Below, one piece after another: positions 24,736 through 49,189 of a stretch of 64,000 nt of DNA. Position 1 is the first letter of the stretch. Every line of letters begins with the position of its first letter. The stretch covers positions 6,176,501 through 6,240,500 of the forward strand of contig NZ_CP048222.1 in NCBI RefSeq assembly GCF_010119975.1, written 5' to 3'. A model generated the notes under the pieces. It saw only the letters and a program-made list of their open reading frames with translations, was not told the DNA's origin and did no database searches. This DNA is from Rhodocytophaga rosea. GTDB taxonomy: Bacteria > Bacteroidota > Bacteroidia > Cytophagales > 172606-1. Made by a program: the position numbers and the translations under genes.

Positions 24736-27700
24736 ATGGTCCTGCTGTCTGAATACAATTTTCTGGAACGGATTAGCCTCCATGACCATACCTTTATCTA
24801 CCGGGCAGAGCGCTGCAAAGACCACCAAAAGGTATTACTCAAAATTGTTGAAAATGCCAGTGAAAAAAGTGAGCAGGCTGCCCGTATCGCCCATGAATAT
24901 GAAATTGCCAGCAGTTTTTCATGCAAAGGCATTGCCCGTTTCCTCACCCTGGAAACCTACCAAAGCCTCCAGGTAGCTGTTATTGAAGACATTGAAGGCA
25001 TTTCGCTTGAAAAATACCTGAAAGAGCACAAAGTTACCCTTGCCCAGACACTCCAGATAGCGATTGCCATTACTGAAATTCTCGAACATTTTTACCAGAA
25101 AGGCATTGTTCACCAGGGACTTTGTCCGGCACACCTGCTCATTAATCCGCATACACTCGATGTATACCTGATTGACCTGTCTATTGCTTCCAGGGTATCT
25201 TCCCAGAAAGGAGTAATCGAACAGCCTGAATTTTTGAAAGGCTCACTTGCCTATATTGCCCCGGAACAAACCGGCCGGATCAAAGGTGAAATTGACATCC
25301 GCAGCGACCTGTATTCCCTGGGTATTATTCTCTATGAAATGGTGCTGGGCGAAGTTCCTTTTGATGCCAAAGAAGTCTTAACCCTGGTACATCTGCACAT
25401 TGCCAAAAGCACTGTTCCTCCGCACCTGAGTAATCCGCATATTCCCGGAACGCTGTCTGCTATTATATTGAAATTGTTGTCAAAAAATGCAGAAGACCGC
25501 TACCAGTCTCCGTTTGGCCTGAAAAAAGACCTGCAGGCCTGCCTCAGTCAATGGAATACCATCAAACGTATGGAATTGCCTATGCTAGGACAATATGATT
25601 TCTCAGGCAGGCTGCAACCGCCCAGAAAACTGTATGGCAGGGAAAAGGAAATGGCGCAACTTCAGCAAGCCTTCAGCCGGGTGCAGGCTGGTGCGTTAGA
25701 GATCGTACTGATTGAGGGCTATTCCGGCATTGGAAAATCTGCCCTGGTACAATTAATCAAAGAGCCAGTATACCAGATAGGAGGAAATTTTGTAGAGGGC
25801 AAATTCAACCAGTTTCAACGGAATGTTCCCTATTCTGCCTTTATTCAGGCATTCAAAGTGTTTACTGACCAGATTCTTACCCAGAATGCAGAAGGGATCA
25901 CCCAATGGAGGGAAAAAATCCTGGAGGCCGTAGGCACCAACGGACGTATTTTGACAGATATTATTCCGCACCTGGAACTACTGATCGGTCCGCAACCGGA
26001 GGTAGCCGAACTTGAATCCACTGAAACCCAGAACCGGCTGCATTTTGTATTTATTAAATTTATTAAATGTATTGCCCGGCAGGAGCATCCCCTGGTTATT
26101 TTTTTTGATGATCTGCACTGGGCAGATGCCGCTTCTTCGGGTTTATTAAAAATAATCGCTGCCGATAAAGATCTCCGTTACGTGTTATTTATTGGAGCAC
26201 TGCGCAACAAGGAATATACCAGTGATAGTGTATTTTCTGCCACGATAGAAAACATGCAAAAAGAAGGCTTCCGCATTCAGAAAATGGTGCTCATGCCGCT
26301 GCAATATACACATGTGGAAGCCCTTATTCACGAAACCCTGCAAGGCAATATACAAGATGTACAGGCTTTTACTAGTCTGATGTATGATAAATCACAGGGA
26401 AATCCCTTCTTTATTCACGCCTTTCTCAAATGCCTGCATGCAGAACATATACTTCATTTTGACTTTAATTCCTTCGGGTGGATATGGAATGCGGCCAGAA
26501 TCCAGCAGCTTCGCTTTTCAGAAAACATAGTAGAATTACTTGCCGGAAGAATTCAAAAACTTCCAGGAATTACTCAGCACCTGTTGAAATTAGCGGCTTG
26601 CCTGGGATTTGAGTTTGATGTATCACTGCTGATGATTGTACGCAAACAAAACAGGCAGGAAATTATTCATGCCTTGCTTCCGGCGCTGGAAGAGGATCTG
26701 ATTTTGCCGGCAGGCGATCATTACCGGTTTACCCACGACCGGATACAGCAAGCAGCCTATTCTTTAATTCCCGATGCTGCTAAAAAACAAGAACATGCCA
26801 TTATTGGCCAGGCGCTGTTACACCATTTTGAACAGGAAGACCATCCAACGTATCTGCTTGAAACGGTGAACCAGCTCAATGCCGGCCGTGAACTGATTGT
26901 TTCTACGGAAGAAAAATACCAGCTGGCCGCTTTAAACTTACGGGCAGGTTTGAAAGTGAAATCTTCTGCCGCTTATACACTCTCCTTTGAATACCTGCAT
27001 GCCGGTATTCAACTGTTAGGTGAGGATGCCTGGAAAACCCATTACGAACTGGCTTTGCAGTTGCATATAGAAGGGGCTGAGAGCAGCTTTTTGAGCGGAA
27101 ATCCCTACATGATGGAAGAATGGGTAGAAACGGTAGTGAGAGAAGCCAATCGTGTGCTCGATAAAGTGAGGATCTATGAAATTACCATCAAATCGTATAT
27201 CGCCCGCAACCAGCTGGTATATGCCGTACAAGCCTCTTTACAGATACTGGAATTACTGGGTATACGCTTTCCGGCTAAGCCTAATAAACTGCATGTATTA
27301 ACAGCCCTTGTTTCGATAAAACTCAGGCTCCTTCACCAGCCTATTGAAACCCTGAATACGCTGCCACCCATTAAAAACCCCTACATTGAAGCCGCCATCC
27401 GGGTACTGGCCAGTGTGGGGTCAGCCGTGTATTTTGCTATGCCAGCGCTGTTTCCACTGTTTGTGTGCAAGGCATTTTCCCTGATGATCAGGTATGGAAA
27501 TACGCCTTATTCCGGGGTGGTTTGTAATAGTTTTGGACTGATTATGATCGGTGGGGTAGGCGACATTGAAACCGGATATAAGCTGGGTAAAATCGCCATG
27601 CAGCTTTCCGAAAGGTTTGAAGGAAGTTCTCTAAAATGCCAGAGTCGGATGATGGTGCATTCATTTATTTCTCACTGGAAAGAACCCCTACATCATACGT

Positions 27701-29904
27701 TAGCCCCCCTGCATCACAATTACTGGTATGGCCTGGAAAATGGAAATATCGAATTTGCAGCCTATTCTATTTTTGTACATTGTTATTCCGCTTTTTTCTG
27801 TGGCCGCAATTTAAAAGACATTGCAGAAGAACACCTGAAGGTTCATGAACGACTGCTCCGGCTGGAGCATGAAAGCGGCCTTAACCTGCACCGGATTCCA
27901 ACCCAGGCCGTATTAAATTTGTACCAGGTAGTAGAAAATCCCACTGTTCTTACCGGCAGTGTTCATGACGAGGAAACCATGGTACCTATCTATAAAGAAA
28001 GAGCCGCTGAAACTACTTTATGTGCATTATATCTATACAAACTCATTCTTAGCTATTTGTTTGAGAAAGAGGAAGAAGCCAGCCAGCAAGCGCAGGAGTT
28101 CAGAAACCGGATTGAAAGTGTGGCTGGCAGCTCTGAATTTATGATTTTTTATTTTTATGATACCTTGATTGCGGCCAGCCTGCTCTCTGGCCAGAAAAAT
28201 GTATCCCGCAGAAAACTATTGAACCAATGCGAAGCCAACCTGGCAATCTTCCGTAAATTTTCCGGGAAATCTCCTGTTAATTATCAGCATAAGCTGTACC
28301 TGATGGAAGCAGAACTATGCCGGTTGAAAGGCAATATACACAAAGCCGCCATGCTCTATGACCATGCGATTGAGGAAGCCAGAAAAAACGACTATCTCAA
28401 CGACCATGCCTTGAGTTGTGAACTTGCCGGTAAATTCTACCTGTCCCAACACCGGGAAACCCTGGCCAGACACTATTTAACTGAATCACATACGTATTAC
28501 CGGCAATGGGGAGCTTTTAATAAAGTACATGTTCTGGAGAAAAAATATAATTTTCTGTCCGGAACACCTGTACAAACTGCCATTGCTTTGCCCGGAACAT
28601 CTCCACAGCAGGATTCCGGAGATTTTTCTGTGGAGAGAAGCCTACAAGGATTGGATTTACACAGCATTATGAAAGCAGCTACCGCTATTTCCAGTGAAAT
28701 TCAGCTCGAGAAACTGCTGAAAAAGCTGGTAAAAATTGCGGTAGAAAATGCCGGGGCACAGCAAGGTTACCTGATTTTAATCAAGGACGAAGCATTTGTT
28801 ATAGAAGCTGCCTGCTCTATTGATTCTGAAGAGGAAGTAGTACTGCCTTCATTGCCTGTTAAAAATAACCGCCTGGTATCTGAAGCCATTATCAATTATG
28901 TGTTTGTAACCCAGGAAAATGTGGTGCTCGATAATGCTTCTCAGCATCCGGTTTTTTCTTCTGATACAGTTCTGGCAGAAAATCAGTCCAGGTCGGTATT
29001 GTGTGCGCCTATTATTCACCAGGGAAAAGTTATTGGCTTGTTATATTTTGAAAACAGGCTGATCTCGCATGCCTTTACCCTTGACCGCATTGAACTGCTC
29101 AAACTTCTTTCCGGCCAGATTGCTGTTTCCATTCAGAATGCGCTCAATGAACAAAAGAAGGTGAATGCCTTTATGGAGCGGGAAAAGCTGCTCAAAAAAA
29201 TTAATCTACAGCAGAGTGTTCAGTCCAAAGCTATTCTCAAGACCCAGGAAAACGAAAGGCGGCGTATTGCCGAAGAACTGCATGATGGATTAGGCTATAT
29301 GCTGTCTACGCTAAAACTCAACCTGACTTCGCTCAAAGAACAATTATCCGGCCCGGAAGAACAGGTTCAGTTTTTACACAATTCTTTTCTGCTGCTGGAA
29401 GATTCCTTTAAAGAGCTGAAGTCGATTTCCAATAACCTCATGCCAGACCTCTTGTTCCAGTTTGGATTGCTGGTAGCCGTGGAAGATTTGTGTAAAAAGG
29501 TGAATGATGCCGGCAAACTTCATATTACTTTCAGGCATTATAATTTCAAACGGAAATTGAAGAAAGACTTTGAACTGGAGGTGTTCCGCATTGTACAGGA
29601 ACTGATCAATAATACTATTAAACATGCCCAGGCCATAAATCTGGAAATCCAGTTTCTTATTCAGCAGGACCGCCTGGTGATTATGGCCGAAGACGATGGC
29701 AAAGGCTTCGATTTTCAAAAGAAAATAAAGTCCAGAAGTAAAGGCAAAGGCCTGACCAATATTACTAACCGGATCAATTTTATGAGAGGCACTTTGCGTG
29801 TAGAATCTTCCGAAGATTTTGGAACCAGTTTTATTATCGATCTGCCACTAACTTTCAAACTCGTTAACTTATTAACTGATGATCAAATTACTGATAGCCG
29901 ATGA
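24736..29904 (+). CDS. giant sensor: pseudokinase - AAA ATPase - TPR-like - GAF - histidine kinase
   Basis: A 1722-residue protein. A Ser/Thr kinase-like domain (about 5-270) is followed by an ORC/AAA-type ATPase with Walker A GYSGIGKS at 328-335 and Walker B FFDDLHWAD near 458. A long helical TPR-like region follows (about 700-1290), then a GAF domain (about 1335-1475) and a NarL-type histidine kinase with phospho-His 1516 in EELHDGLG and a HATPase (GKGFDF). This is the HstK-type hybrid kinase plan known from cyanobacteria and myxobacteria. Here the catalytic loop reads HQGLCPAHLL (126-135) instead of HRDxxxxN, and the DFG is DLS (147-149), so the kinase domain looks inactive. The ATP-site Lys 36 and the APE motif (175-177) are kept. 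Its stop overlaps the response regulator gene. Confidence 0.9.
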   Translation: MVLLSEYNFLERISLHDHTFIYRAERCKDHQKVLLKIVENASEKSEQAARIAHEYEIASSFSCKGIARFLTLETYQSLQVAVIEDIEGISLEKYLKEHKVTLAQTLQIAIAITEILEHFYQKGIVHQGLCPAHLLINPHTLDVYLIDLSIASRVSSQKGVIEQPEFLKGSLAYIAPEQTGRIKGEIDIRSDLYSLGIILYEMVLGEVPFDAKEVLTLVHLHIAKSTVPPHLSNPHIPGTLSAIILKLLSKNAEDRYQSPFGLKKDLQACLSQWNTIKRMELPMLGQYDFSGRLQPPRKLYGREKEMAQLQQAFSRVQAGALEIVLIEGYSGIGKSALVQLIKEPVYQIGGNFVEGKFNQFQRNVPYSAFIQAFKVFTDQILTQNAEGITQWREKILEAVGTNGRILTDIIPHLELLIGPQPEVAELESTETQNRLHFVFIKFIKCIARQEHPLVIFFDDLHWADAASSGLLKIIAADKDLRYVLFIGALRNKEYTSDSVFSATIENMQKEGFRIQKMVLMPLQYTHVEALIHETLQGNIQDVQAFTSLMYDKSQGNPFFIHAFLKCLHAEHILHFDFNSFGWIWNAARIQQLRFSENIVELLAGRIQKLPGITQHLLKLAACLGFEFDVSLLMIVRKQNRQEIIHALLPALEEDLILPAGDHYRFTHDRIQQAAYSLIPDAAKKQEHAIIGQALLHHFEQEDHPTYLLETVNQLNAGRELIVSTEEKYQLAALNLRAGLKVKSSAAYTLSFEYLHAGIQLLGEDAWKTHYELALQLHIEGAESSFLSGNPYMMEEWVETVVREANRVLDKVRIYEITIKSYIARNQLVYAVQASLQILELLGIRFPAKPNKLHVLTALVSIKLRLLHQPIETLNTLPPIKNPYIEAAIRVLASVGSAVYFAMPALFPLFVCKAFSLMIRYGNTPYSGVVCNSFGLIMIGGVGDIETGYKLGKIAMQLSERFEGSSLKCQSRMMVHSFISHWKEPLHHTLAPLHHNYWYGLENGNIEFAAYSIFVHCYSAFFCGRNLKDIAEEHLKVHERLLRLEHESGLNLHRIPTQAVLNLYQVVENPTVLTGSVHDEETMVPIYKERAAETTLCALYLYKLILSYLFEKEEEASQQAQEFRNRIESVAGSSEFMIFYFYDTLIAASLLSGQKNVSRRKLLNQCEANLAIFRKFSGKSPVNYQHKLYLMEAELCRLKGNIHKAAMLYDHAIEEARKNDYLNDHALSCELAGKFYLSQHRETLARHYLTESHTYYRQWGAFNKVHVLEKKYNFLSGTPVQTAIALPGTSPQQDSGDFSVERSLQGLDLHSIMKAATAISSEIQLEKLLKKLVKIAVENAGAQQGYLILIKDEAFVIEAACSIDSEEEVVLPSLPVKNNRLVSEAIINYVFVTQENVVLDNASQHPVFSSDTVLAENQSRSVLCAPIIHQGKVIGLLYFENRLISHAFTLDRIELLKLLSGQIAVSIQNALNEQKKVNAFMEREKLLKKINLQQSVQSKAILKTQENERRRIAEELHDGLGYMLSTLKLNLTSLKEQLSGPEEQVQFLHNSFLLLEDSFKELKSISNNLMPDLLFQFGLLVAVEDLCKKVNDAGKLHITFRHYNFKRKLKKDFELEVFRIVQELINNTIKHAQAINLEIQFLIQQDRLVIMAEDDGKGFDFQKKIKSRSKGKGLTNITNRINFMRGTLRVESSEDFGTSFIIDLPLTFKLVNLLTDDQITDSR

Positions 29905-42831: not shown

Positions 42832-43764
42832 TTATTCCAGTACAGCGCTCATGGGAAATTTTTTGGCATAGCGGCCATTGAGTAGGGGATATTGTTTCCG
42901 GCTCGTTTCTTCGGATACTTTTGTACGCACATACTCATAAATTTCCCGGATGTCGACCAGTTTATTCTTATTTTCATCGGCAGCGCCTTTCAGCCCCTCC
43001 ACCAAATAATACGTAAATACGCCATGGCCGCCACCCCATTGCGGCGCTTCTACCGAAGTTTCTCCGGCTGAAGATGCACTTAATACAATAAAACTAGCCT
43101 GGGCAGAAGCGACATTGGCCAGGAGCCGGTTCACCATGGTGGCCTCAGCAATTTCCCGTTCACCCCGCATGGTGCTGCCTGCAAATGCCGTTTCTGTACC
43201 TACCACCGTACCAGAGTGACAGGCATCGGCGATCCATACTTTTTTCTGTGCCCTCGAACTGCTGATCGCTTCATCGAATTCAGATTGAGATACGGCAGAG
43301 CCTTCCAGATTTTCCCGGTCGGTGTCTGTGCCTAAAAAGAAAAGTTTATTTCCCCGTTTGGTAGGCAACCCATGACAAGCAATATAGACGATCGCCAGAT
43401 CTTCCTCGAATGCATCGCTAAACTGATTATTTAAGGCTTTGATAATGTTTGCCCTGGTTGCATTTTTATTGAGCAATAAGGTAATATTTTTCTCCGGTAC
43501 CGAACCTCCTTGCGGGCTTCTTAAAAAGTTATAATACAGCTGGGCATCGGCATCGGCATATTTCAGGTCTTTGATATTAGGGTCCTGATAATCCGATACG
43601 CCAATAATAACTGCATATACTTTGGAAGTCTTAAACTCTGCATCCTCACTTTTTACTTTGATGCTTACCGGGTTGCTGCGGCTGCTTGCCTCTTGTGCGG
43701 AAGCGATATAACTGGTTCCAGCAAATAAAAGCATGGACAAAGTTATTTGGATAATACGTTTCAT
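42832..43764 (-). CDS. secreted caspase-family protease (C14-like)
   Basis: A 310-residue protein with a signal peptide (MKRIIQITLSMLLFAGTSYIASAQ). It carries a caspase-like p20 domain with catalytic His 131 in YIACHGLP and Cys 182 in IADACHSG, both in canonical context. AVIIGVSDYQ and LKYADADAQLYYNFL are typical of bacterial orthocaspases. No extra domain follows. It is the last gene of a four-gene minus-strand group. The T9SS cargo gene starts upstream at 47079 and ends 57 bases before this start. Its place beside exported repeat and beta-helix proteins suggests processing of envelope or secreted substrates. Bacterial caspase relatives usually cut after Arg or Lys (established), but specificity here is not visible. 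Confidence 0.9.
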   Translation of the reverse strand: MKRIIQITLSMLLFAGTSYIASAQEASSRSNPVSIKVKSEDAEFKTSKVYAVIIGVSDYQDPNIKDLKYADADAQLYYNFLRSPQGGSVPEKNITLLLNKNATRANIIKALNNQFSDAFEEDLAIVYIACHGLPTKRGNKLFFLGTDTDRENLEGSAVSQSEFDEAISSSRAQKKVWIADACHSGTVVGTETAFAGSTMRGEREIAEATMVNRLLANVASAQASFIVLSASSAGETSVEAPQWGGGHGVFTYYLVEGLKGAADENKNKLVDIREIYEYVRTKVSEETSRKQYPLLNGRYAKKFPMSAVLE

Positions 43765-43821
43765 AAAACTGTTTTTAAATATACTATCTGCAAAATTTTC
43801 TCACGTTTGCAGAATTAAAGT

Positions 43822-46800
43822 CTATCGTAAAATCATTTTCAGGGTATAGTTCTGGCTGGAAGCAGAATCTCGAATAGTAGCCCTGCCCATGTACATTCCT
43901 GCCGGCAACCGTTGTCCCTGACCGTTTTTGCCATCCCATACAAGCTGATAAAAACCAGCCTGATACTTTCCTTCTGCCAGTGTAGCCACTTGTTTTCCGT
44001 TGGCATCAAATACTTGTACCTGCACCTGATAGGGCAGCTGCGATTTCGGCAAAGCAAATGCAATGGTAGTAGATTCGCTGAAAGGATTAGGCATGTTGGC
44101 AAGCAACTGAATACGGCTGGCATTCAGGTTTTCTGCCATAAATCTGGCATCACCATAATACACCCTGAACTTATGTTCTTTGGAAAGATCAAATGTATAC
44201 TGCTGTTGTGATTGCATATCAATAATTCTTTCAGCTGTAGGATCATACAAAAACAACTGCTTACCAATAGCTCTGGCGAAATAATTTTCCCATTTCAGAC
44301 TTGCTTGCTGGGCATCCAGGTTGCTTTCCACAGTAAACTCCCATACCTTATTTTCTTCTACCGGCACCATATCTTTGGTAAACCGGCCATAAAAATGTTC
44401 CGGATGGGCAAAATTTACCTGCAGGTAATGCAGTATTTTTGGCAAACCGATTTCATCCAGATAATCCCGGTCCGGTTGAGCATCGGGGTGCATGCCCAGG
44501 CCACCTAAGCCATAACTCAGTTCTTTAGTGTGCAGGGTAAAATTAGACTCAAACTCAGAATCCGGATGGTATCTGGGCAGGCTTTCTTCCGCAGCAATTC
44601 TGGCTGAATTGTATTCCAGGTTGCGTTTTACCGGGAATTTTAGGGTTACCGCCTCATCGCAGAAAACAAATCCACCTGAAAAAGCATTAAGCTTATCGCT
44701 GCCTGCATCTGGATAGGTGCCATCCTGAAGCACCCTAAGTTTCCCGACCAGGCCGTTTTCAGGAATGCCGCTCTTTTCCCGGATCTCTTTCCAGGATAAA
44801 TTCAGATTATAAGGATTTCCAATCAGATTCCAGCCTTTGAGAAGGTTCAGGGTAAACGGATTATTCTCATTCTGGCGCAGGGTAGAACCTTCACCTGTAG
44901 TAATACTTATCTGGTCTTTCACTATCAGCAGGTATGCTTTCCCAGGTTCTATGGTAGTAAATCCATTGGTGTATTCCACCAAACGGCTATTTTCAAAGGC
45001 GAATAGCCGCCATTTTTCCTTGTCGTAACTGCCCAGTTCATTGAATATGGCGCTCACTTCTTTGAGTGAAGTATTTAAAGGGATAGAAATGATCTGATAA
45101 TCTTTCTTTTCTGAGCCGAAAATAAGACCTGGAATGGGAAGCCCAGGATCATTATAAGAAGTATTCACTAATTGCACATCAGTAACCACTTTCTGTCCGG
45201 CGGTGGTAGTTAGTTCAAAATAGTATTCCAGACCAATTTCATCTTTTAGCGTAGCAGGCAGCGGCAAATTCAGCGTAAACTTGGCAAGGTCTTGAGTGTT
45301 CTGGAGCATAGGATATTCCCGCCATTCATTACGGGTAATATCTTTAGAAAGAATCTTTACCTGACTGATGGCTGCCACCGGATAATTCACCTTCACGGCT
45401 GTTTCTGCCGCACTTGCGTCTGATTCTATTTCAGTAAAGCCTTTTTCAATCGTAATGGGAGGAAGGGTAGTAAAATTCCAGGTAGTAGCCGTTGTACCCA
45501 CATAATTATTTCCGGCGAGATCTGTAAAGGTGCCTTCCGGAATTTCTACACTGATACGGGCACTAAACTCAAAATCAGTAGCTGGATTAATGGTAACTTT
45601 GGTATCGGTTTCCGAAATAGTGATCAGGTCGCTGCTAAGCGGAATCGTAGCATAAACATCATTATTCTGCCTGATAATTATACTTCCGGTTCCTTTCTGG
45701 ATGGCTTCACTGAATGTTAAAGTCAGATCGGAATAAATGTTGATATTAGTAGCATCATCAACGGGAGATAAAGTAGCAGTGGGTGGAATACTTTCCAGAG
45801 GTGTATAAAAGGTTTCGTTCAGGCTGTATACAGTATCCTGAGCAGTAATTACCCGTATCCGGTAATTATAAGTAGTATTGGCCGTAAGTCCGGTTAAAGC
45901 GACACTTACGGGCGTATCAGCGGTGCCTGTTACGGAAGAAGGAGTGGCCGGAGCCAGTGTAACATACGACAGGTCTGTGCTGTACTGGAAGGCAACCGCA
46001 GCGCTTGCACCATTGGCATTTACGGTTCCCTGTAAGGTAATAGATTCTGATGTAACGTTGGTAGGGGCAAGGGTAAGCACTTTAATGGCATTGGGGTCAA
46101 TGGTAAACTCCTGTACAGAAACATCACTCCAGATTCCTTTGCTATCTTTTACCCGGATGGTTAACTGGTGTTTTCCTAATGCCAGGTTTGTAATATCTAT
46201 TTCGGAATCCATTTCCAGGCTGGCGCCTGGCGTAATAGTTAAGGGTTTGCCTGCTCCCGGTGCAGGATTGGCATTATCGAAGAAATATTCGGCTGCTGTG
46301 ATCTGCGCCAGACTTGTAAGTGCCTGATTAATCACCAGAGATCGGCTTTCCTGTAAGCTCCAGGTTCCCCGGCTGTCTTTCACCCGGATATACAAAGTAT
46401 GAAAACCAGCATTCAGTCCTTCCTTCGATAAATCTATTTCTACTTCTGCCTGTCCATTTTCTCCAATAGCTATACTTTTACCTTTCCCAAATCCGGGATC
46501 AGTATCGAAAAAATATTCCCCTTGTGTAGGTACAGTATTAACGGTAACGGGCGTTGGCTGAACCAGGAAAGTACGTCCTTCTATCAGGCTCCACTTTCCA
46601 TTTGAGTCTCTGGTGCGCACAAACAAAGTATGTACACCAGCTGCTAAACCGGTCAGGTTAATTTCAGGTTCAAGATCAATGGTGCTGCCAGCAGTAACTG
46701 ACAAACTGGTGCCATTTCCATTCCCAGGATCAGTATCGAAAAAGTATTCAGCAGCAGTAATGGTAGGAGTACTGATAACAGGAGCGTCCTGAATCAGGAA

Positions 46801-47079
46801 AGTACGTCCTTCCATCAAACTCCACCTGCCATTGGAATCCCTGGTTCGTACAAACAATATATGTGTGCCAGTGGTTAGGCTGGTCATGTCAATTTCAGCA
46901 TTTATTTCTACTGAAGCACCGGCAGTAATGGTAATAGAGGTGCCATTGCCCACGCCTGGATCAGTATCAAAGAAATATTCAGCAGAAGACACGGTTTGTG
47001 CCCATGCGGTACCTGATGCGCCTGATAAGCCCATCACAAGCAAGCAGCCTATGATGAACCGTAGTATACGGAATGTCAT
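43822..47079 (-). CDS. T9SS cargo protein with four EYFFD repeats, Fn3-like and Big-like domains
   Basis: A 1085-residue secreted protein. A signal peptide (residues 1-28) is followed by four repeats of about 77 residues with EYFFDxxxP at 34, 111, 188 and 264. A fibronectin III-like domain (about 331-425), a bacterial Ig-like domain (about 430-540), a region of unknown type (540-990) and a C-terminal T9SS sorting domain (about 995-1085: MPNPFSESTTIAFALP, QVFDANGKQVATL, LPAGMYMGR) complete it. It should be carried across the outer membrane by the type IX system and anchored or released. It starts 13 bases after the stop of the beta-helix gene, so the two are surely co-transcribed. No enzyme motif was seen; an adhesin or surface scaffold role is inferred. 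Confidence 0.9.
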   Translation of the reverse strand: MTFRILRFIIGCLLVMGLSGASGTAWAQTVSSAEYFFDTDPGVGNGTSITITAGASVEINAEIDMTSLTTGTHILFVRTRDSNGRWSLMEGRTFLIQDAPVISTPTITAAEYFFDTDPGNGNGTSLSVTAGSTIDLEPEINLTGLAAGVHTLFVRTRDSNGKWSLIEGRTFLVQPTPVTVNTVPTQGEYFFDTDPGFGKGKSIAIGENGQAEVEIDLSKEGLNAGFHTLYIRVKDSRGTWSLQESRSLVINQALTSLAQITAAEYFFDNANPAPGAGKPLTITPGASLEMDSEIDITNLALGKHQLTIRVKDSKGIWSDVSVQEFTIDPNAIKVLTLAPTNVTSESITLQGTVNANGASAAVAFQYSTDLSYVTLAPATPSSVTGTADTPVSVALTGLTANTTYNYRIRVITAQDTVYSLNETFYTPLESIPPTATLSPVDDATNINIYSDLTLTFSEAIQKGTGSIIIRQNNDVYATIPLSSDLITISETDTKVTINPATDFEFSARISVEIPEGTFTDLAGNNYVGTTATTWNFTTLPPITIEKGFTEIESDASAAETAVKVNYPVAAISQVKILSKDITRNEWREYPMLQNTQDLAKFTLNLPLPATLKDEIGLEYYFELTTTAGQKVVTDVQLVNTSYNDPGLPIPGLIFGSEKKDYQIISIPLNTSLKEVSAIFNELGSYDKEKWRLFAFENSRLVEYTNGFTTIEPGKAYLLIVKDQISITTGEGSTLRQNENNPFTLNLLKGWNLIGNPYNLNLSWKEIREKSGIPENGLVGKLRVLQDGTYPDAGSDKLNAFSGGFVFCDEAVTLKFPVKRNLEYNSARIAAEESLPRYHPDSEFESNFTLHTKELSYGLGGLGMHPDAQPDRDYLDEIGLPKILHYLQVNFAHPEHFYGRFTKDMVPVEENKVWEFTVESNLDAQQASLKWENYFARAIGKQLFLYDPTAERIIDMQSQQQYTFDLSKEHKFRVYYGDARFMAENLNASRIQLLANMPNPFSESTTIAFALPKSQLPYQVQVQVFDANGKQVATLAEGKYQAGFYQLVWDGKNGQGQRLPAGMYMGRATIRDSASSQNYTLKMILR
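46099..46980 (-). repeat. four tandem 77-residue coding repeats (EYFFDTDPG type)
   Basis: The repeats start at residues 34, 111, 188 and 264 of the T9SS cargo protein, giving periods of 77, 77 and 76 residues. Each begins EYFFDxxxP and ends with a strand pattern RxxDSxGxWS followed by a hydrophobic strand. Units 1 and 2 are most alike; unit 4 is the most divergent, with DNANPAPGAG in place of DTDPGxGxG. Confidence 0.9.
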
Positions 47080-47091
47080 CCTGGTGCGCTG

Positions 47092-48120
47092 TTAGTTTTT
47101 GGCTTCTGCCTTAATGGAAATATTCAGCTTGCTGTTTGGCGCTATTACGCTATTTTTAATTACAAATTCCCGGATCTGCGGAACAGCAGGTTCGCCACTT
47201 TCTGAAAACCCTATTCCACCATAGAGGCCTATATCTTTCCCATCTGTTCCCGCATTTTTACCTGGGGAAGAAGCCTGCAGGTGAAAATCATATTCATATT
47301 TAAACGTATTATCCCCGGCAGCCGGAAAATTTGTAAATACCGGATCTGCATTTACTTTATTGGCGGTACCAAAGTTGGTCCCATAAGGAATGGGATTGGC
47401 TGTAGTAGAATAGGTAAGATTGTTATTGAAAGTTGAGTTACTAGCGCCTTCTGGACTTACCCCATAAAAAATGTTATTTTGGAATGTACAGTTCTTTACA
47501 ACATAAAAAGCATCAGTATTACTAGATACGGTAGCTATAAATACATTATTATTGAAGAAACAAGTATGTGCATAATACACTATGCCTGTAAAAATATTAT
47601 TGTTGATCTGGAACTGATTGGGCGTAGTATTATTGGCGTTATTGGTTATTTGTAAATTGCTAACAATAATATTATTTTCAATTACCCAGTTAGTAGGTTC
47701 TGTTGTATTATTTCCGTAAGAATATATATAAGTGATATAACATCTTTTAATGGTAATGTCATTAATAGTAAAACTGCTGGCTGAATTTATATGATAGATA
47801 ATAAGGCCAATGAAGGAAGAGCCAGTAGCACCAGCTGTTTTGCCTAGGGTAATAGTGCCTAGTGTCGCTTTTAACGCTACCTGTTTTTGCGGATTATGGC
47901 CAGGCCCTATGAATACCAGCTTCTTATCTACATCAAAATTGCCATACTCTGTTTCAGAGCCGTGGATGTAAATAGTATCTCCTGCAGCAGCAGCAGTCAT
48001 AGCAGCCGTAATAGTTGCATACTGGGCAGGAGTTCCGGCACGGTTACTCACGGTGAGTACTTTGGCATAGGCAAGGGAAGTAAGTATAACTAAGAAAGAG
48101 AGTAGACATATACGTTTCAT
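47092..48120 (-). CDS. exported right-handed beta-helix protein
   Basis: About 342 residues from the preferred start MKRICLLSFLVILTSLAYA at 48120; the 15 codons upstream add nothing. After the signal peptide comes AQYATITAAMTAAAAGDTIYIHG, in pieces typical of pectin-lyase-like folds. Many short Asn-rich rungs follow (NNIIVSN, NNNIFTG, FQNNIFYG). The C-terminal 40 residues include ITLPNSVIAPN-like text (actual: KNSVIAPNSKLNISIKAE). Neither a T9SS tail nor catalytic residues could be picked out. It sits between the Kre9/KNH-like gene and the T9SS cargo gene on one strand. A carbohydrate-binding or structural surface role is plausible. Confidence 0.82.
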   Translation of the reverse strand: MKRICLLSFLVILTSLAYAKVLTVSNRAGTPAQYATITAAMTAAAAGDTIYIHGSETEYGNFDVDKKLVFIGPGHNPQKQVALKATLGTITLGKTAGATGSSFIGLIIYHINSASSFTINDITIKRCYITYIYSYGNNTTEPTNWVIENNIIVSNLQITNNANNTTPNQFQINNNIFTGIVYYAHTCFFNNNVFIATVSSNTDAFYVVKNCTFQNNIFYGVSPEGASNSTFNNNLTYSTTANPIPYGTNFGTANKVNADPVFTNFPAAGDNTFKYEYDFHLQASSPGKNAGTDGKDIGLYGGIGFSESGEPAVPQIREFVIKNSVIAPNSKLNISIKAEAKN

Positions 48121-48219
48121 ATAAATAGGGATTTTGTAGTAGCGTATGGAGTAATATGTGTTCAAAGTTGAATGCCAAAATGAGGAAACCTACCCAAGCA
48201 AGAGGTGTAGGCACAGAAT

Positions 48220-48954
48220 TTATTGCGGTACATCCGGCTCTGGCAGTAAGATTTTTTGTGGAGGAGGTGGTGGTCCGGAATCCTGGTTGAGAATAATATA
48301 TGCACCAGCCCCAACGAGTGCAAATGGCAATACTTTCGCTAATAAAGGAATCCGGCGGCGAATGCTGAACTTGCGGCTCAAACTAAAATTATCCGGATTT
48401 GCTTCACTGCTCACCCGCAACTGATAATTTCCTCCGGGCTTACTTTTATCAGGCACGTTCCAGGAATGTTTGCCTTTATTGGCAGTAGAGGTAATGCTGG
48501 ATATCTTCACATCATTGCGGTATAGTTCCACATTCACTTTGTCAGAAGTAAGGCCACCAGCCCATTCAATCTGATAGGTCTTGCCGCGTTTATATCCGGA
48601 AGTTTTACCAGGAGATTTTACTGCAAAAGGTGAAAAAGCCAGCTCTGCCCGAACATCAAAAGTGATGTCTCCTTCAAAATTATTCAGCTCTCTGGTTTGC
48701 CATACCATCTTTTTGTTTTTGCCAGCCTTTATTTTGTTGCCTACTTCTCCGGTAACATAAAGCAGGGGAGAGTTATACTCATTATGGGAGCCATAGAGTT
48801 CTACTGTAAAAAGCTGGCCTTCTATGGTTCCTTGCAAATCGTAGAGGATAGTAACAAAAGCAGAATCGGCAGTGGCTCTCACATTTGAAATTTGCTGGGA
48901 AAAAGCAGGGTAAGCCATCAGGTAAAGCAGGAGGCCAGCTGTAAAAACTTTCAT
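48220..48954 (-). CDS. exported protein with Kre9/KNH-like domain and C-terminal membrane segment
   Basis: About 244 residues from the preferred start MKVFTAGLLLYLMAYPAFSQ at 48954 (the frame is open to 49020; Met 48960 is an alternative). After the signal peptide is a beta domain (about 20-105). A Kre9/KNH-type Ser-Thr-rich GPI-anchored-family domain (about 110-200) follows, with SPGKTSGYKRGKTYQIEWAG, and KHSWNVPDKSKPGGNYQLRV. A basic stretch RRRIP precedes a membrane helix (LLAKVLPFALVGAGAYIIL) and a short proline-rich tail (GPPPPPQ). It is the first gene of the minus-strand group that ends with the caspase gene. It may anchor or organise the other exported products at a membrane (inference). 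Confidence 0.8.
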   Translation of the reverse strand: MKVFTAGLLLYLMAYPAFSQQISNVRATADSAFVTILYDLQGTIEGQLFTVELYGSHNEYNSPLLYVTGEVGNKIKAGKNKKMVWQTRELNNFEGDITFDVRAELAFSPFAVKSPGKTSGYKRGKTYQIEWAGGLTSDKVNVELYRNDVKISSITSTANKGKHSWNVPDKSKPGGNYQLRVSSEANPDNFSLSRKFSIRRRIPLLAKVLPFALVGAGAYIILNQDSGPPPPPQKILLPEPDVPQ

Positions 48955-49189
48955 CAGCATTTTTAAAATGCTAAAAAGAAGGAGTTGAAAATGTGGTAAA
49001 ACGTAAAAATGAATCCCCATATGCTCATTAAAATAAAAAACACATTCAAGGCAGGCGGTAATCTTACATTCAAATCCGATAACTGGCAGGGATAATTTGA
49101 GCTAACTTGCTAAACTTATTAAAGATACGGGCTTAATCCGAGAAATAAAATACCTACTTTCAGGTATTTTCAGAAGTATATCTTACATA

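Follow-up and report, generated by a model that had tools for sequence, protein, structure and literature searches.

A conserved Cytophagales gene cassette combining a Kre9-like protein, a T9SS-type cargo and a predicted exported caspase, with a chimeric variant in Rhodocytophaga rosea

In Porphyromonas gingivalis, surface proteins of the type IX secretion system (T9SS) are processed by gingipains. Gingipain-type enzymes belong to the C25 peptidases (PMC4357240), and metacaspases, paracaspases and orthocaspases, for their part, cleave after arginine or lysine (PMC4357240, PMC6426788). Surface-linked metacaspase operons have been reported by Asplund-Samuelsson et al., who also noted possible signal peptides (PMC3501461); the cassette considered here is not described in the available part of that paper. 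Here we analyse a window of 64,000 nucleotides (G000:C1:6176501-6240500) from the 9.0 Mb, single-contig genome of Rhodocytophaga rosea, in which four consecutive genes encode a Kre9-like protein, a beta-helix protein, a large cargo with a T9SS-type C-terminal domain and a caspase-family protease (Table 1). As judged from conserved gene order, three of these families form a core cassette that recurs across the Cytophagales and consists of the Kre9-like protein, the large T9SS-type cargo and a small, predicted exported third protein that is usually a caspase. We consider it nearly certain that this cassette is a real functional unit.

A first protein-by-protein search covered 59 genomes, namely the window's own and 58 relatives, among which G001 is the sole member of the same genus, and an order-wide survey covered 291 Cytophagales genomes. 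To quantify gene adjacency we relied on a scan with the constant base of the cargo only, with one genome per species and with loci chosen without regard to caspases, which yielded 78 loci and 81 cargos; as the scan used one peptide pattern and its best 80 matches were retained, the resulting frequencies describe that sample. Loci were searched with a broader caspase profile, the narrow caspase hidden Markov model missing cassette caspases of 390-405 aa. Seventy-five of the 81 cargos are followed by at least 900 bases of contig on their 3' side and could be assessed downstream: the next same-strand gene encodes a caspase in 46 of these 75, and a caspase lies within two genes in 51. The corresponding counts are 1/28 for repeat cargos without the base, 0/22 for similar cargos outside the order and 0/324 for other genes of the same loci. 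On the other side of the cargo, 50 cases could be assessed, and 33 of them have a Kre9-like gene directly upstream of the base; a Kre9-like gene and a caspase both lie within two genes in 34 of 46. The genes are tightly packed, with median gaps of 14 nt (Kre9-like to cargo) and 6.5 nt (cargo to caspase) and some overlaps. Cassette loci were recorded in Cyclobacteriaceae, Fulvivirgaceae, Flammeovirgaceae, Marivirga and others, and occur as tandem copies in L225 and L233, where each cargo has one caspase; Marivirga sericea (L236) and Chryseotalea sanaruensis (L233) are among the carriers of the core cassette. The R. rosea genome itself carries a paralogous cassette 80 kb away (L109): it has a Kre9-like gene, its cargo joins a different head to the same base, and its caspase shares 56% identity with that of the window.

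Two further arrangements were observed alongside the core cassette. At G000:C1:848001-868000 (L113), a second type of set combines a Kre9-family protein devoid of the Kre9 domain with a lipoprotein-like gene of 244 aa, a cargo of 1363 aa whose head and tail are different, and a caspase that falls within the main cassette group of the caspase tree presented below. Outside the order, similar-base cargos are in some cases followed by a protein of 170-176 aa with two Kre9-like profile matches (L275, L281, L285).

The initial annotation of the window had proposed that the four genes form one module of same-strand, tightly spaced genes. Strand and spacing are as described, with gaps of about 99, 12 and 57 nt in transcription order, and the families are indeed conserved together, as a foursome in the window and at two further loci and as the core throughout the order; a fixed four-gene module has to be given up, however, since the beta-helix gene tracks the repeat head of the cargo rather than the cassette and the core comprises three genes. 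Of the two further loci, L149 lies in a genome of another family (G080) and presents, in the order and orientation of the window, a Kre9-like gene, two beta-helix genes, a repeat-plus-base cargo and a caspase, and L255 (Flammeovirgaceae UBA4659) contains all four families; at L239 a repeat cargo and a caspase are found at a contig edge. The exact four-gene set is absent from all seven other genomes sampled in the window's family. In a tree of 44 beta-helix proteins, a strongly supported branch separates the window protein from those of L149 and L255, and their union as one clade is rejected, so that the beta-helix gene and its repeat cargo were grafted onto the cassette at least twice; our trees are quick searches with some long branches. 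A locus outside the order (L269, G376) combines a beta-helix gene with a repeat-plus-base fusion cargo, in the absence of a Kre9-like gene or a caspase.

The cargo carries four EYFFD repeats, starting at residues 34, 111, 188 and 264, and matches the Pfam models Big_5, Y_Y_Y and FlgD_ig. Its earlier designation as a four-repeat T9SS cargo is exact as to the repeats, but its C-terminal sorting domain scores just under the cut-offs (20.4 versus 27 for Por_Secre_tail, 21.4 versus 23 for TIGR04183). The sorting domain exceeds the cut-off in cassette relatives (L147, L150, L211), and the genome encodes the T9SS component SprA (SprA_N match, E-value 1e-161). Among the 59 genomes, relatives of the repeat head (EYFFDTDPG) are found in distant families, where a beta-helix relative lies directly upstream; relatives of the constant base (residues ~546-990) and C-terminal domain occur throughout the window's own family, with a Kre9-like relative directly or nearby upstream as far as the contigs reach. 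Order-wide, the beta-helix family is present in 56 of the surveyed genomes and the cargo base in 30, and in every fetched locus except L184 the beta-helix gene has a repeat cargo directly downstream. Domain by domain, the window cargo is a chimera in which two conserved units have met, the beta-helix gene being by the same comparison the partner of the repeat head and not of the core cassette. Other heads exchanged on the cargo base include propellers of the Sortilin/BNR and FG-GAP types, leucine-rich repeats, DUF5122, Big_5 arrays and an array of ten Kre9 domains. In its own right, the pairing of a beta-helix gene with an EYFxDxDPGxG-repeat T9SS cargo constitutes a widespread two-gene unit (L120-L127, L161-L188), whose beta-helix part belongs to no Pfam family, with several copies in G025 and G080.

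All four window proteins apparently are exported: each has a signal-peptide-like N-terminus, recognized by inspection in agreement with the initial annotation, the script used beside visual judgement being permissive (366/823 control open reading frames (ORFs) pass). The Kre9-like protein matches Kre9_KNH at 34.7 bits (cut-off 24.6), as do 11 of 15 relatives, and its description as a membrane protein is borne out by a C-terminal hydrophobic helix kept in alignments of the family; the true start of its gene is probably the ATG at 48960 or 48954. In the family at large (48220-48330 and relatives), this helix is followed by a proline-rich tail of the LPxPPxPxN type, with the tail motif in 51/57 proteins, and preceded by basic residues, a poor fit to the positive-inside rule. 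The beta-helix protein matches no Pfam model, and its assignment rests well with the predicted fold, a right-handed beta-helix (predicted local distance difference test (pLDDT) 76) whose best PDB match is a PL6 alginate lyase (E-value 1e-5, template-modelling score 0.54 by query). Structural models were built on shallow alignments, with mean pLDDT of 70 and 76.

Table 1. Coordinates of the cassette and associated features within the window
Feature	Position	Strand	Description
ORF 1, Kre9-like protein	49020-48220	minus	266 aa; first in transcription order; signal peptide, unnamed domain, Kre9/KNH Ig-like domain 136-220, C-terminal membrane helix, proline-rich tail (LLPEPDVPQ)
ORF 2, beta-helix protein	48165-47092	minus	357 aa; probable ATG start at 48120
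ORF 3, cargo	47079-43822	minus	1085 aa; signal peptide; EYFFD repeats ~28-335; fn3-like 336-425; Big_5 431-538; constant base 546-990; T9SS type A-like C-terminal domain 995-1085
ORF 4, predicted secreted caspase (C14)	43764-42832	minus	310 aa; signal peptide; short cassette leader QEASSRSNPVSIKV; caspase domain 48-310
Codon of cargo Arg827	44597-44599	minus	candidate cleavage site in the constant base, from conservation
Terminator-like hairpin	49227-49197	minus	12 pairs, T-rich tail; strong; between murA-like gene and cassette

The terminator-like hairpin sets the cassette apart from the murA-like gene upstream. GC content is ordinary save for a 500-bp segment within the beta-helix gene (0.346), and recent acquisition was not favoured on base composition. 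Elsewhere in the window, a plus-strand gene (24736-29904) encodes a 1722-aa protein whose single chain comprises a protein kinase domain, an AAA_16 ATPase, a GAF domain and a histidine kinase.

The identification of the fourth gene product as a secreted caspase-family protease is upheld by a Peptidase_C14 match of 76.7 bits (cut-off 21.4) and by a His131/Cys182 catalytic dyad. A hmmscan search up to an E-value of 1 returned Peptidase_C14 and a sub-threshold CHAT match only, with no hit to Peptidase_C25, and the EACC1-type model NF047832 reaches 122.1 bits, under its cut-off of 140. The predicted fold is nearest to plant metacaspase 4 and MALT1, with a VIA-align Z of 23.6 to the former. Across 67 cassette caspases, the histidine is kept in 64 and the cysteine in 60 of the 65 in which its column is covered, and two aspartates at metacaspase-type pocket positions are retained in 63/65 and 65/67. 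We infer that the cassette caspase has a metacaspase-type acidic pocket, predictive of cleavage after Arg or Lys. Such cleavage is typical of subfamily C14B, and most metacaspases depend on Ca2+.

In a tree of 101 caspases, most cassette enzymes fall in one large group; those of the window and L109 lie outside it, and their closest neighbours are L114 and L115, stand-alone caspases from the same genus. A single clade of the window and main-group caspases is rejected, by a likelihood gap whose large size suggests an imperfect constrained search. Most third proteins nevertheless have in common a short leader after the signal peptide, and a leader profile built without the window and L109 proteins matches both (E-values 0.0056 and 0.01, respectively). 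We read this as a refilled protease slot, in which a caspase domain of new lineage would stand behind the old leader; weak convergence could also account for the resemblance.

Post-hoc scanning of the constant base singled out Arg827 as a candidate substrate site. It is the most isolated of 51 strongly conserved base columns, being Arg in 97% of 105 cargos of the order, while in the flanking columns the commonest residue averages 27%; outside the order, where none of the 22 cargos has an adjacent caspase, Arg occupies the position in 4/22. In its pattern of conservation, Arg827 looks like a protease recognition site.

We therefore propose, as a working model, a surface-display system with its own protease. 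The cargo would cross the inner membrane via its signal peptide (Sec) and, by virtue of its C-terminal domain, the outer membrane via the type IX system. Its constant base would display an interchangeable head. Its dedicated partner would be the Kre9-like protein, held in the envelope by the C-terminal helix, and a short leader may tie the third protein to the same assembly. The caspase would then cut the cargo, most likely after an Arg or Lys in the constant base, with Arg827 as the candidate, and the cut would result in cargo maturation or head release. In R. rosea, the head and its beta-helix partner would have been grafted from the second conserved gene pair, and the caspase domain would stem from another lineage. 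We regard this caspase processing of displayed cargo, taken as a whole, as tentative and nearly as likely to be right as wrong. The suggestion in the initial annotation that the module builds and later cuts a surface structure is likewise conjectural. That the caspase acts on the cargo or on its Kre9-like partner is evenly balanced between true and false, whereas a cut precisely at Arg827 is on the unlikely side. The broader notion of a new surface system, in which each polymorphic T9SS-displayed protein has a dedicated caspase that cuts a fixed base site and so controls display or shedding, is possible yet doubtful.

Several observations weigh against caspase processing of the cargo. Some cassettes encode pseudocaspases that lack the catalytic Cys and in some cases the His (L133/L190, L197, L199, L205), and in relatives from the window's family the same slot holds a CARDB protein without a caspase. 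Arg827 is retained in 37 of 38 order cargos that have no adjacent caspase, and no C14 match was obtained in genomes G002 and G006, which carry Arg827 cargos (G006 has 7% contamination and many contigs). The basic stretch before the Kre9-like helix was rejected as an alternative caspase site, as it shows no link to the enzyme (2.8 K/R with a caspase versus 3.2 without). Furthermore, the caspase has no T9SS tail and so may not meet the cargo on the surface.

The principal rival explanation, which we hold to be rather unlikely, is that the third protein is an adaptor or regulator that docks, through its leader and its Ig-like/CARDB part, on either the Kre9-like protein or the cargo, with proteolysis secondary or absent. 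Occupation of the slot by the CARDB-only versions of the window's family and by pseudocaspases would be natural for such a role, as would a leader common to all versions of the third protein; yet the dyad is intact in about nine of ten cassette caspases, and in Rhodocytophaga the slot has been filled by a caspase of another lineage that is predicted to be active, its dyad being present. Alternatively, the caspase could act in envelope quality control or shedding, degrading or releasing cargo that fails export or after a signal, without any maturation. The missing T9SS tail, which makes a periplasmic location probable, and the one-to-one pairing of caspase and cargo even in the tandem arrays have been counted in its favour, but this task would not call for one enzyme per cargo, and an Arg that is single and invariant points to cleavage at one defined position rather than to degradation; we consider this reading improbable.

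A programmed-death or conflict device, in which recognition of a stranger by the surface protein would lead the caspase to kill either the cell itself or the intruder, strikes us as very improbable. The variable heads might act as sensors, conflict systems are reported to include caspase relatives (PMC7159879), and a PADLOC caspase model matches the domain; that match, however, covers only part of the profile and is the sole trace of a known defence system, the NCBIfam EACC1-type score remains under its cut-off, and the caspase has a signal peptide and no NTPase or effector partner. Finally, the rarity of the exact four-gene set in the window's family could point to chance neighbours that happen to be exported, but chance clustering is contradicted by the caspase-adjacency controls and the four-family set recurs in two other lineages, which leaves this explanation barely credible.

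Processing of the displayed cargo by the cassette caspase, if true, would place caspases in surface-protein maturation, an extracytoplasmic and non-death role, within a surface system that swaps its head, its helper gene and its protease as modules. Most bacterial caspase relatives have no known role; here, a coherent large set has its likely partners named by gene order, and a specific candidate cut site makes the cassette testable. We came across no account of the cassette in the open-access literature (subscription literature lay outside the search), where no paper treated caspases together with T9SS, operons and Cytophagales, or together with Kre9 and Bacteroidetes; for caspase, type IX secretion and Bacteroidetes together, no title or opening of an abstract was on this subject. 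Each part of the cassette is of a known kind, and it is their combination for which no description was found.

Compared with described systems, the cassette caspase belongs to neither the gingipain/PorU (C25) nor the EACC1 caspase families, and the gingipain/PorU link drawn in the initial annotation holds at the level of the clan but not of the family. Like gingipains, it would be a clan CD cysteine protease with Arg/Lys preference in a T9SS-cargo setting, if our proposal is right; unlike them, it is a C14 enzyme with no T9SS tail and no C25 match, encoded by a separate gene beside one cargo. With the PorU sortase it shares the status of a clan CD protease tied to T9SS cargo, but PorU is a C25 protein present once per genome, and the PorU model matches the C-terminal domain of the cargo only, not the caspase. 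The nearest curated caspase model is that of the EACC1-associated caspases (NCBIfam NF047832; PMC7159879), from which the cassette enzyme differs by its sub-threshold score, its predicted export and the lack of any EACC1 or NTPase partner seen at the locus. Finally, the fold, dyad and acidic pocket are those of prokaryotic metacaspases and orthocaspases (PMC3501461, PMC6426788), whereas, set against the available parts of these accounts, the cassette caspase stands out by its predicted export and by its place in an operon with a Kre9-like protein and a polymorphic cargo.

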